Source: Streptomyces sp. GS7 (lineage in GTDB: Bacteria > Actinomycetota > Actinomycetes > Streptomycetales > Streptomycetaceae). From it: a DNA stretch of 64,000 nucleotides. The notes beneath the pieces were generated by a model. That model worked only from the letters and a program-made list of their open reading frames with translations, was not told the origin of the DNA and searched no databases. Position 1 is the first letter of the stretch, and each line of letters begins with the position of its first letter. Shown here piece after piece: positions 52,064-55,427 of the stretch. A program made the translations under genes and the position numbers. The stretch spans positions 8,030,501 to 8,094,500 of the forward strand of contig NZ_CP047146.1 in the NCBI RefSeq assembly GCF_009834125.1, written 5' to 3'.

Positions 52064-53083
52064 TCAGCTCGTGGGGGAGAAGGACTGCAGGGCCAGGTGC
52101 TCGGTCTCCTGCTGCCGGGGCCAGTCCGCCGCGGGCCCCAGGACGAGGACCGCGAACTGCCGGCCGTCCGCGGCGGCGAACGCGGTGTCGACGGCCTGGA
52201 CGCGGATGCCGAGGCGGTCGCTGTCGTAGGCGTAGACCAGCTGGGCGCCGCTGGAACCGGACGGTCCGGGGACCGGGCCGAGGCTGATCTGCTGATAGCC
52301 GGGGTTGCCGGCGAGTCCCTGGGACGCCTGCTCCAGGGCCCGCTGGGGGGTGAGGCCGGATTCGGTGATCTGGAAGATCTGGAGCAGGTTGCGGGAGTCC
52401 GCCGAGGTGTAGAAGACGCCGGTGGGCCGTTCGTCGCGCTGCCAGCCGTCGGGGACGGCGAGGGTGAAGCCCTTGACGTCGTGGACGACGTGGTAGCCGC
52501 CCGGGGCGCCGGAGGCGGTGGGCGAGACGGTCGGCGTACCGGACGCGGTGCCGCCGGTGGCGGGCGCCGTGGGGGTGGTGGTGACGGAGGCGGACGAGGT
52601 CGGCGGGTGGGCGGCGGGCGGGCGTGCCGGGGTGCGGCCCCAGAGGAGGTAGGCGCCACCGGCACCGATCGCCAGGACGCCCACCACCGCTGCGGCGATG
52701 AGGGCCCTCGTACGGCGGCGGCCGGTGCCCGGAACGGGCGGTAAGGGCGGGTAAGGGGTCTCCGGTGCGGGTGCGAACGCCTCGGCGGCAGGCGGGAACG
52801 GCGCCTCGGGCACGGGTGGGAACGGCGCCACGGGCGCGGGTGGGACCGCGGGCCCTTCGCGTGGCGGCGCCGGGGTGCCGGAGGAGGCGAACGGCGGCCA
52901 GGGCACATCGGGCGGCGGGGCGCCGGCACCGGACGCCGTACCGTCCGCGGACGGCGCTCCCATCGACGGGGCGGTCGTCGGGCGGGGCGGCAGCGGGCCC
53001 GTGTACGGGCGGGCGGGGCGCGGGGGTCCGGTCTCCCAGGACTGGGTGTCCGGGTTCCAGTGCGGTGCGGGTCCGTCGGGCAT
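52064..53083 (-). CDS. Single-span membrane protein with Pro-rich N-terminus
   Basis: A 339-residue protein. An N-terminal WNPDTQSWE motif and Pro/Ala-rich region of about 115 residues precede one membrane span (ALIAAAVVGVLAIGAGGAYL). The exported domain, after a Thr/Ser-rich stalk, has GYHVVHDVKGFTLAVPDGW and is found in extracytoplasmic domains of Streptomyces sensor-like proteins. It starts 6 nt after the 140-residue RHIM-motif gene and probably shares its transcript. Confidence 0.7.
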   Translation of the reverse strand: MPDGPAPHWNPDTQSWETGPPRPARPYTGPLPPRPTTAPSMGAPSADGTASGAGAPPPDVPWPPFASSGTPAPPREGPAVPPAPVAPFPPVPEAPFPPAAEAFAPAPETPYPPLPPVPGTGRRRTRALIAAAVVGVLAIGAGGAYLLWGRTPARPPAAHPPTSSASVTTTPTAPATGGTASGTPTVSPTASGAPGGYHVVHDVKGFTLAVPDGWQRDERPTGVFYTSADSRNLLQIFQITESGLTPQRALEQASQGLAGNPGYQQISLGPVPGPSGSSGAQLVYAYDSDRLGIRVQAVDTAFAAADGRQFAVLVLGPAADWPRQQETEHLALQSFSPTS

Positions 53084-53089
53084 GGCCGG

Positions 53090-53512
53090 TCAGCCTCCCA
53101 GGAGGGCGCTGACCGCCTGTACGACCGAGGCCCCCGAGGACAGCAGGCCGACGAGGGAACCGGCGTCGGTCAGGGCGGTGCGCAGCCGGGCCAGGCGGCC
53201 GGGGCCGGCTGCGCCGCTTTCGGTGATCTCGCCTTCGGTGTCGGTGAGTTGGGCGGTCAGGGCGGTGATCTCGGGGCTGCCCACGAGCCGCCCGAGGTCC
53301 TCCCGCAGCGCGCGGACGGCCTGGAGGAGTTCCTGCTGCGCCGGGTCGGTGGCGGGGGCGGAGCCCTGGTGATGGGTGACGGTGTTGTGGTTGCCGATGG
53401 CGAAGGCGCCCTGGACGCTGCCGATGTGGATCCCGTGGATGCCCTGGTCGGCGCCGCCGTTACCGCCGTTGCCGGGGTTGTCGCCGTTGCCGGGTGCGTC
53501 AGCCGTTGCCAC
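53090..53512 (-). CDS. Small protein with RHIM-like amyloid motif
   Basis: A 140-residue protein starting GTG at 53512. Residues 1-24 are Gly/Asn-rich. Residues 30-46 read IGSVQGAFAIGNHNTVT, a V/I-x-I-G-x-x-N-like core resembling the RHIM and bacterial amyloid signalling motifs. It is followed by a helical domain (QQELLQAVRALREDLGRLVG) with a hydrophobic C-terminus (SLVGLLSSGASVVQAVSALL), as in pore-forming or membrane-active effectors. It overlaps the larger membrane gene by 14 nt. The motif is shared with the end of that protein. Confidence 0.6.
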   Translation of the reverse strand: MATADAPGNGDNPGNGGNGGADQGIHGIHIGSVQGAFAIGNHNTVTHHQGSAPATDPAQQELLQAVRALREDLGRLVGSPEITALTAQLTDTEGEITESGAAGPGRLARLRTALTDAGSLVGLLSSGASVVQAVSALLGG

Positions 53513-55427
53513 GCTGGGGCCTGCCCTTCTTGGACGCGGAATCGCGCTGGATGGTGTTGTCGCCGTTGCTGATGAGGGTGTTGTGGTCGCCGATGCCCAC
53601 GGCGCCCTGTGCGGACTCGACGTAGACACCGCCCTCGGCGATGTTGACGATCCGCTGCTCGAATTCTTCGGTCCGATAGCCGGCGTCGCGCAGCGCGGTC
53701 ATGACCCCGGCCGCCACCCGGTCCTGAATGGACTTCAGGTAGCGGGCCACGTCCATGTCCTGGAACAGCGATGCCTCGCCGAAGGAGCCCAGCTCTCGGA
53801 CCGAGGCGGCGGGCCCCTCGGGGAGGGCGCCGCCGTTGCCGCCGGTGAGCAGCCGCCAGGCGGTCCGCAGCCCGCGCAGCAGGGTGAGCACGGCGTCGCC
53901 GACGGCACGCGGGGTGTGGGTCAGCGCCCAGACCGCCGTGCCGAAGTGGCCGTGGTGGCGGTAGCGGTGGGCGATCCGGTCGGCGTCCTGGAAGAGCTGG
54001 CGCAGCGGCAGCAGCACATGCGGGGCGACCTCCAACATCAGCATGCCGCCCTGGGAGTGGACCCGCACGAACACGGTGGTGACCACGCCTTCGTTCCAGC
54101 CGCCGACCCTGATCCGCAGGAAGTGCCGGCGGGTCTCGCCGCCCTCCTCGATCGCGGCGGCCCGGTGGGCCTCGAACGCCGCCGGGTCGTACGGTGCCGC
54201 CGCGCGGGTCGGCAGCCCGTCGGCGGGGAGGAAGACGCACTCGTCGATCTCCAGGGCGCGCAGCCGGTCGCGCACCGCCGCTGCCGTCTGCGGTGATCCG
54301 GACGGGACGCGCAGCTCCTCGACCAGCGGGACGACACGGGCCAGGATCGCGCCGTTGTCGAGCGGTTCGGCCGCGCGGCCGGTTCGCGGGACCAGCTCCA
54401 CCGAGAGCGACCAGGGCTTGACCGCCTCGCCGGCGCCGCGGAACGGGTCGGCGGCGCGGTACATCACGAGCGGCCCGTGCTGCTCGACCCGGACGCGGTG
54501 CCGCAGCCGCTGGAAACGGATGCCGTCGGACTGCTCGGCGGGGTCGGACAGCACGTCCGGGAAGCGCTCCCGGGACAGTTCGCGGGCCAGCACGTGGGCG
54601 AACCGGCCGCGCCGGAGGGCGACCAGCACGGCCAGCGCCACCGGCAGCAGCAGCGCGACCCAGACCGGGAACACCGCGGCGAAGCCGGACGAACCAGACG
54701 AGCCGGACACAGCCGCAGCGGAGCCGGGGCCGGCGTAGGGGCCCGGTCCCAAGCCGCCGCCGAGGGAGCCGGACCCCGAGGAGCCGGAGAAGAGGCTGTC
54801 CAGCAGCCAGGCGAGCGGGGACGCGAAGCTCGTCGCGGCATCGTCCCCGCTGAACGCCGCCACCGCCAGCCCCACCACGAGCAGGGTCAGCATGAGGCGG
54901 CCGTTCCAGCGGAAGAGGAGGGACAGGCCGCGGGCCAGCCACTCCGGGAGCGGCGCCCGGCGGACGTAGCGGCCGATCCCCAGCAGGACTACCGGGAGGA
55001 CATAGGCCACCGCCAGCCACCGCGAGAGCGGGAGCGCCACGACGCAGGCGAGCAACATCAGCGCCGCCCAGCCCAGTTCGAGGCGGCGGGCCCGCAGGGC
55101 GTGGGCGAGCACCCGGGCGGCGTCGATGCCCAGGGACGGCGCGGCGAACCGCTCCTCATGGACGTACAGCTCGTCGATGACGGCATCCCGGAACGCCTCG
55201 TCCATGTACGTGCCGGCGCACAGCAGGCGGGTGGTGTCGCTGGCGCCCGGCGGGACGGGCAGGACCGGCGGGAGGGGGGCGGCGGCCGGCGCGGCGCCCG
55301 CGGACTGCTCGGGCACGCCCTTGCTCAGCCGTGGCGGACCGCCCGACCGCTCCGGCTCCTCCGGCTCCTCCGGCTCCTCCGGCTCCTCCGGCTCCTCCGG
55401 CTGCGCAGACACATCCGTACCGCTCAT
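53499..55427 (-). CDS. Membrane protein with C-terminal RHIM-like motif
   Basis: A 642-residue protein. A PEE-repeat N-terminus, three or four hydrophobic helices between about 115 and 275, and a large cytoplasmic domain from about 290 to 595 are visible. Near residues 601-620 it reads VYVESAQGAVGIGDHNTLIS, then a second NGDNTIQ echo. The central domain (RIRVGGWNEGVVTTVFVRVH) is not recognised. The start at 55427 gives an acidic repeat-rich N-terminus. The gene is cotranscribed with the 140- and 339-residue genes. Confidence 0.6.
   Translation of the reverse strand: MSGTDVSAQPEEPEEPEEPEEPEEPERSGGPPRLSKGVPEQSAGAAPAAAPLPPVLPVPPGASDTTRLLCAGTYMDEAFRDAVIDELYVHEERFAAPSLGIDAARVLAHALRARRLELGWAALMLLACVVALPLSRWLAVAYVLPVVLLGIGRYVRRAPLPEWLARGLSLLFRWNGRLMLTLLVVGLAVAAFSGDDAATSFASPLAWLLDSLFSGSSGSGSLGGGLGPGPYAGPGSAAAVSGSSGSSGFAAVFPVWVALLLPVALAVLVALRRGRFAHVLARELSRERFPDVLSDPAEQSDGIRFQRLRHRVRVEQHGPLVMYRAADPFRGAGEAVKPWSLSVELVPRTGRAAEPLDNGAILARVVPLVEELRVPSGSPQTAAAVRDRLRALEIDECVFLPADGLPTRAAAPYDPAAFEAHRAAAIEEGGETRRHFLRIRVGGWNEGVVTTVFVRVHSQGGMLMLEVAPHVLLPLRQLFQDADRIAHRYRHHGHFGTAVWALTHTPRAVGDAVLTLLRGLRTAWRLLTGGNGGALPEGPAASVRELGSFGEASLFQDMDVARYLKSIQDRVAAGVMTALRDAGYRTEEFEQRIVNIAEGGVYVESAQGAVGIGDHNTLISNGDNTIQRDSASKKGRPQRGNG
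55351..55402. repeat. 9-bp minisatellite encoding Pro-Glu-Glu
   Basis: On the plus strand the unit is CTCCTCCGG-type, repeated five to six times within 55351-55402. It encodes the PEE repeat at residues 10-25 of the 642-residue membrane protein. Such tracts vary in copy number by slippage. Confidence 0.7.

Follow-up and report, generated by a model that had tools for sequence, protein, structure and literature searches.

Organization of the locus and features of its products

The locus lies in a 64,000-nt stretch (hereafter, the window) of contig NZ_CP047146.1 of Streptomyces sp. GS7; coordinates below are positions in the window. On its minus strand, ORF reading identified a gene for a 642-aa membrane protein (B, 53499–55427), a candidate sensor or nucleator, and a gene with a GTG start for a 140-aa protein (S, 53090–53512), a candidate effector or amplifier. 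The two reading frames overlap by 14 nt (53499–53512). Both proteins, their coordinates and the overlap were thus recovered as given in the preliminary description of this DNA. The overlap is likely to result in translational coupling, and the last 40 nt of B contain an ATG or GTG in the S frame at 85 of 110 paired loci (110 of 118 loci were kept; seven chance matches and one contig end were dropped). Directly downstream of S is a gene for a 339-aa protein (C, 52064–53083, minus strand) with a weak, below-cut-off match to TIGR03931 (T7SS-associated). No copy of the motif shared by B and S was seen in C by eye. Upstream of B, the window's locus contains mdh and icd.

B has no family match above cut-off in Pfam or NCBIfam, and no NTPase domain was seen when B and 58 relatives were scanned against Pfam. 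Homologues of B numbered 964 of 7995 candidates scored, and 120 of them were used as rows. In the AF2 model (mean pLDDT 80), supported by hydropathy and a charge count, membrane helices span residues 103–283 (54579–55121, minus strand), followed by an ordered alpha/beta part at residues 303–597 (53637–54521, minus strand) and a tail, residues 603–642, that is modelled as disordered. The long loop at residues 193–249 contains no lysine or arginine, as opposed to 12 in the stretch 273–330, and the C-terminal part of B is therefore predicted to be cytosolic. Residues 326–585 show a weak likeness to lipid-binding folds of the helix-grip type (START / Bet v 1); as a lead from a fold search, it was too weak to claim this fold for B.

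S likewise has no family match above cut-off in Pfam or NCBIfam; 103 homologues were found in the protein collection. Its AF2 model consists of a disordered head (residues 24–51, pLDDT < 50) and a four-helix bundle at residues 57–139 (53096–53344, minus strand) with helices at 57–74, 80–99, 104–121 and 125–139. A fold search with the bundle returned generic four-helix folds only. The last 27 residues are hydrophobic (mean GRAVY 1.23 and a median of 1 charge at 102 of 104 loci). The preliminary description proposed that this end could act on membranes; it may instead form the core of the bundle. PADLOC matched none of the three proteins B, S and C, and a PDB sequence search with B and S returned nothing of weight.

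Sequence comparison suggests that S is a distant relative of the DUF5955 family (PF19380). The window's S (P0001) itself gave no match; 51 of 78 S relatives matched at E ≤ 1 (best 5.6e-4) with the curated cut-off not reached, and the DUF5955 profile also produces sub-cut-off matches in control genomes, so that weak matches there mean little. A far-relative S (locus L145) scored above the cut-off, at 52.6 bits. The GS7 genome carries a true DUF5955 gene elsewhere (L119), and no motif was seen in its 124-aa ORF. The S query also gave weak matches in the same genome (L002–L008), with E values from 0.04 to 1.25; one of them (L003) was read, and they appear to be chance hits.

A terminal motif shared by B and S and its co-variation

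A motif of about 20 residues is present in the products of these adjacent, overlapping genes: VYVESAQGAVGIGDHNTLIS at the C-terminus of B (residues 601–620; 53568–53627, minus strand) and IHIGSVQGAFAIGNHNTVT at the N-terminus of S (residues 28–46; 53375–53431, minus strand). In both proteins the motif falls into an end predicted to be disordered. The pattern S-x-Q-G-A-x-x-I-G-x-H-N-T, from which the preliminary description started, is indeed present in both copies. A degenerate DNA pattern encoding the core (I/V-G-x-x-N-T-hydrophobic) matched the 9.07-Mb genome twice, at the B and S motifs, and the reversed control pattern matched once. Among the homologues, 103 of 104 S rows and 120 of 121 B rows conformed to a permissive pattern of the core.

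The likeness of the two copies exceeds chance. The score between B tail and S head was above the 99th percentile of composition-shuffled heads at 134 of 137 loci; of the three misses, two (L061 and L076) are failures of the extraction rule and one (L039) is a truly weak match. When the motif profiles of S and B were compared with each other, the probability was 98.2 and the score 47.2, whereas 40 column-shuffled controls scored 15.9 at best. In four genomes the S profile alone picked the tail of the neighbouring B (E 1.3e-4 to 9.9e-4). A chance match of low-complexity sequence was ruled out by the shuffled controls, both of heads and of profile columns.

Gly/Asn-rich terminal segments can act as signals, and the motif could in principle be a targeting, cleavage or folding signal that entails no contact between B and S. 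If the cell recognized it as a signal, other proteins would be expected to carry it, and the core pattern is found nowhere else in the genome; furthermore, the letters of the motif vary between lineages and yet match within them. We regard this explanation as highly improbable.

We observed that B and S are inherited together. The B profile, run against named genomes, yielded 141 loci, of which the best 80, all Streptomyces by title, were considered; the most divergent B loci fall outside this set. In every one of these 80 loci S is encoded directly downstream of B and in the same orientation. Conversely, B adjoins S at 29 of 30 loci chosen by S, the 30th being at a contig edge. At all 110 paired loci the helices of S start 76 to 229 nt past the stop codon of B. 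Homologues of mdh and C were present in the fetched stretches of 65 and 69 of the 80 B loci, respectively, some stretches being cut by contig ends. The S profile was positive in 78 of 249 genomes of the family (7 of 17 genera), and 18 of 20 same-genus genomes that lacked an S match also lacked a B match. In one of the other two (G056) the S profile was silent, and the tail of a divergent B led to an adjoining ORF that carries a matching motif, with a region of helical appearance behind it; this ORF scored 72 and the runner-up 37.

Orthologues with the motif missing in one partner, which would speak against the pairing, were sought and seldom found. At L057 the arch of B has an odd length, at L039 the match is weak, and in G048 the tail of B is degraded and no S was found beside it.

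Several observations run counter to a strict pair rule. Apart from the unequal arch of L057 (7/8), the weak match of L039 and G048, they comprise three S-profile matches (L155, which was read as ORFs, L156 and L165) with a helical region, no motif and no B match in the fetched stretch, as well as P0191, which is frame-shifted. In favour of the pair, decay of one partner coincides with absence of the other, both in G048, with its degraded B tail, and at L146, where mdh is followed by an apparently decayed S and no B match was obtained.

We compared motif scores of own partners with those of mismatched partners. At 104 loci (the 110 paired loci minus L029 and L071, whose tails were missed by the rule, and minus four identical ones) the own-partner score was 70.5 vs 44.8 for mismatched partners, and permutations reached at most 49.9. 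The co-variation of the motif pair, which the preliminary description proposed to check across Streptomyces orthologues, is therefore present. Adding 33 of 40 further fetched loci from several genera and paralogues gave a set of 137 loci with scores of 69.0 vs 39.8 (best of 10,000 permutations, 44.7), which makes the motif a conserved, partner-specific feature of both proteins; for the 33 added loci alone the scores were 65.6 and 45.7. Permutations treat related genomes as independent, and the argument is carried by the effect size and by divergent single cases. At L066 (TFVGGSVQGNGIAVG in B and TYVGGSVTGNGIAVG in S) the letters differ from those of other lineages and the partners match. The far-relative pair of L145 (GIQVNGTVNGIVQNGANTRA / GIQVNGTVNGIVQNGANARA) has an own score of 109, with the best other score being 46. 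By eye, L029 and L071 look paired as well.

When B tails were scored against S heads of other species in the 104-locus set, the score dropped from 72–74 to 35–38 with divergence of the B body. This argues against independent drift of two old copies. The length of the arch, from the I/V strand to IG, goes hand in hand in the two partners: it was 8/8 in 60 loci, 9/9 in 34 and 10/10 in 5. Arch lengths were discordant in 2 of 101 rule-scored loci (three were unscored), and inspection by eye left one discordant case (L057), the other being an error of scoring. On a B-body tree of 104 rows, with five arch lengths set by eye (L049, L057, L061, L076 and L114), we counted six arch changes in B and five in S. 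Three of three independent pairs of changes went in the same direction, a number too small for significance (sign test for joint indels, P = 0.25). Asparagine at the position IG+3 (IGxxN) was present in both partners at 69 loci, in neither at 25 and in only one at 5 (n = 99: 104 loci minus the three unscored, L049 and L057).

Matching copies could also be produced at the level of DNA, by gene conversion or as a repeat, with the likeness of the proteins as a by-product. The two copies form a direct repeat with a spacing of about 200 nt, and one protein (P0091) looks like a fusion of a B tail, the motif and S helices joined at the motif. Silent sites are also more alike than expected: four-fold sites match at 0.596 vs 0.477 expected from base use in the B body (102 of 104 loci), and identical residues have identical codons at 0.697 vs 0.592 expected. 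However, four-fold identity within loci (0.617) is close to that between B and S of near relatives (0.608; 86 loci), with both values above the 0.477 expected, and the fraction of identical codons within loci is inside the between-loci range of 0.617–0.774. The lack of a within-locus excess of DNA identity gives no sign of recent gene conversion. These tests, which bear on recent conversion only, weaken gene conversion as the main cause, and we consider it quite improbable.

Comparison with known motifs and with other pairs of the same genome

The preliminary description compared the motif to RHIM. The resemblance in I-G-x-x-N holds, while the glutamine of RHIM is missing: according to an excerpt of PMC7885112, the RHIM core is G-phi-Q-phi-G. 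Glutamine precedes IG in 0 of 99 B motifs and 0 of 99 S motifs, the residue at this position being G, A, S, T, V or N in all of them. Pfam RHIM (PF12721) gave no match at E ≤ 10 in the whole genome, which is a weak test with a short profile of 22 positions. With the core glutamine absent at 99 of 99 loci, the Pfam profile silent and the asparagine lacking in both partners at 25 of 99 loci, we rejected membership in RHIM. In most lineages the motif has the aliphatic-G-x-x-N core of RHIM, fungal PP and BASS3; it also has in common with them an alternation of aliphatic residues and the context of a signalling pair, and differs from them in lacking the core glutamine.

Amyloid signalling pairs of bacteria, BASS / BELL-NLR, were reportedly described by Dyrka et al. 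in 2020. They are covered in PMC7889193, PMC8086366 and PMC12261475, and an excerpt of PMC7889193 places BASS motifs at the N-terminus of the NLR and the C-terminus of the effector. As far as the excerpts of these papers describe them, such pairs share with B/S adjacent or overlapping genes, a common motif of about 20 residues, occurrence in filamentous actinobacteria and a small helical partner with a hydrophobic segment. Partner specificity within one genome, as scored in GS7, is a further common point. BELL effectors were compared with S by description, the points of comparison being the modelled four-helix bundle and the hydrophobic last 27 residues. Unlike in BASS / BELL-NLR pairs, B is a membrane protein according to its model and there is no NLR or STAND partner gene; if B is the receptor, the polarity is also reversed, with the motif at the C-terminus of B and the N-terminus of S.

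Following S-profile matches that had no B, we found a second kind of pair, formed by a DUF6232 membrane protein and a DUF5955-like helical protein. The C-terminus of the DUF6232 protein (e.g. HIGDQINQYGDHNIGK) resembles the N-terminus of its partner (HFGDSVTQHGDHNIGI), and the genes overlap by 4 nt, except for one case with an overlap of 1 nt. We collected 20 such loci at 19 places. With one place fetched twice, 19 of the 20 loci were scored: own partners gave 67.1 and mismatched partners 50.3, a smaller gap than for B/S. These pairs are similar to B/S in that a membrane protein with a C-terminal motif is encoded by a gene overlapping that of a helical protein with an N-terminal motif; they differ in having an unrelated membrane protein, other motif letters and profiles that do not align above control. 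The GS7 genome has its own pair of this kind (L186, 1747–2609). No papers on DUF5955 or DUF6232 were found in the open-access library searched.

The recurrence of matching ends in an unrelated pair bears on the possibility that a third protein docks on both the B tail and the S head and that changes in this protein drive their co-variation. A common partner would make both motifs follow it, and the frequent presence of a C homologue near B is in line with this. On the other hand, the tail/head match is found again with DUF6232 proteins, at 20 loci, and we consider docking to a third protein unlikely.

About 0.5 kb beyond the DUF6232 pair of GS7 (L186) there is a third pair, which consists of an effector and a STAND-like protein. 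The label STAND is based on below-cut-off matches to AAA_16 and nSTAND6, and the start of the effector was chosen by us. Its motif is found at the C-terminal end of the effector (SVEVGGDVSGIVSTGD) and the N-terminal end of the STAND-like protein (SVVVHGDVHGIVSTGD), an arrangement that corresponds to BASS systems as outlined in the excerpts of the papers. Against this motif family the S and B motif profiles scored 13.6 and 10.7, respectively, and the control maximum was 17.1. Since the motif families of the three pairs do not align above control, kinship of B/S with BASS receives no support. By analogy, B/S may work like BASS/NLR pairs; lacking an NLR and having reversed motif positions, it was not filed as a member.

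A putative membrane-anchored switch

Pairing of B and S through the motif is well supported by the data above. With moderate confidence, we interpret the pair as a switch that is composed of a membrane sensor and an effector and operated by templating of the motif, with B as the nucleator of S. B and S would form a co-inherited and probably translationally coupled pair joined by a homotypic beta-arch-type motif. B would reside in the membrane, its alpha/beta part and the free tail with the motif facing the cytosol, and would sense a cue, which may be a hydrophobic ligand such as a lipid. In clustered B, the motifs of the tails might then become exposed or aligned and serve as templates for the corresponding N-terminal motif of S. 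Many S four-helix bundles would thereby be gathered at the membrane, and their hydrophobic last helix may act there on the membrane itself or on the product of C. Such a switch would resemble NLR/BELL amyloid pairs, without an NLR and with reversed polarity. We infer the physical contact, cross-beta templating, the cue and the membrane output. The models agree with the earlier proposal that a sensor recruits the small protein, as they predict a membrane-embedded B with a disordered tail and an S with a disordered head in front of a bundle.

In Drosophila PGRP-LC / Imd, a membrane receptor seeds the amyloid of a cytosolic adaptor via a matching motif. This is the closest analogue of the logic proposed here for the bacterial B/S pair, and we claim no homology. 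Both proteins are named among RHIM-like amyloids in an excerpt of PMC7885112. No description of a pair such as B/S was found among the open-access literature matches listed, as judged by titles and abstract openings.

The chief rival to templating is a finite, non-amyloid beta-strand or beta-arch zipper, in which S would be a stoichiometric cytosolic subunit of a B complex that perhaps also includes C. Co-inheritance, matching letters and joint indels would be explained by a finite zipper as well as by amyloid, and a core locus that is fixed next to mdh and has a third conserved gene suits a housekeeping membrane complex. However, the two copies follow the same pattern, i.e. they are self-matching rather than lock-and-key, which is typical of templating motifs. 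They are also located in ends for which the models predict disorder, and the pair scores like the effector/STAND-like pair of the same genome (63 and 67, respectively), which speaks for templating. We consider a finite zipper less probable than templating.

As to the function of the proposed switch, the position beside mdh in most loci marks a fixed core locus and not a defence island. Together with the silence of PADLOC, this argues against a dedicated role in immunity or suicide. Judged by this core location, a physiological role is at least as well supported as one in suicide or defence.

An excerpt of the review PMC7889193 raises the question of whether bacterial signalling amyloids operate in NLR-independent pathways. 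B/S and DUF6232 pairs are direct, testable candidates for such amyloids. We tentatively suggest, as a generalization that may well prove too broad, a class of NLR-free, membrane-anchored prion-like switches in actinobacteria, in which the B family and DUF6232 proteins, as unrelated membrane sensors, would each template a DUF5955-like four-helix partner, encoded by an overlapping gene, by a private C-terminal motif. The letters of the motifs would drift in step, forming insulated channels that coexist with the effector/STAND-like pair. The 137 loci, with varied letters but preserved matching, provide a data set for rules of homotypic specificity. Within the GS7 genome, own-partner scores were 63 for B/S, 67 for the effector/STAND-like pair and 44 for the DUF6232 pair, the latter being barely above the shuffled 99th percentile of 42 obtained from the B/S set. 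Every cross-score was between 15 and 34; with three pairs in one genome and no cross-match above noise, a test of insulation is possible.

Additional motif-bearing pairs in the genome

Outside the window, the genome of Streptomyces sp. GS7 contains a second membrane/helical pair (G000:C1:8897246-8898108, corresponding to 1747-2609 of stretch L186), in which the genes for a DUF6232 protein and a DUF5955-like protein overlap by 4 nt and a motif is common to both products. About 0.5 kb after this pair, an effector gene overlaps a STAND/AAA-like gene (L186 3106-5474); the effector motif is C-terminal, and the matching motif is located at the N-terminus of the STAND/AAA-like protein. The G-x-x-S-T-G tail of the effector is kept in 53 of its 68 homologues.

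Divergent motifs and domain arrangements

In far relatives, the motifs are again matched and have few letters in common with the window motif: GIQVNGTVNGIVQNG at L145 (G171), NGGTxxxGNQAxG at L187 (G056), and SVSGGAFSVG at L163 (G030). A short protein of Streptomyces sp. S186 (P0091) looks like a fusion of the last helices and motif of the 642-residue membrane protein B to the helices of its 140-residue partner S, with the motif forming the junction. At three loci (L155, L156, L165) the DUF5955-like helical domain is present, with no motif and no match to B; at L155 it is followed by a gene for a different apparent membrane protein.

Third gene and N-terminus of B

The third gene, C (52064-53083, minus strand), has a homologue within the stretch at 69 of the 80 loci. 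Its product has a proline-rich N-terminus, one membrane segment (judged by eye), and a weak match to TIGR03931 (T7SS-associated). B itself starts with an EEP repeat (EEPEEPEEPEEPEEPE, 55350-55400), and the DNA behind it is a tandem repeat that is short and rich in GC; among its relatives the N-termini differ.
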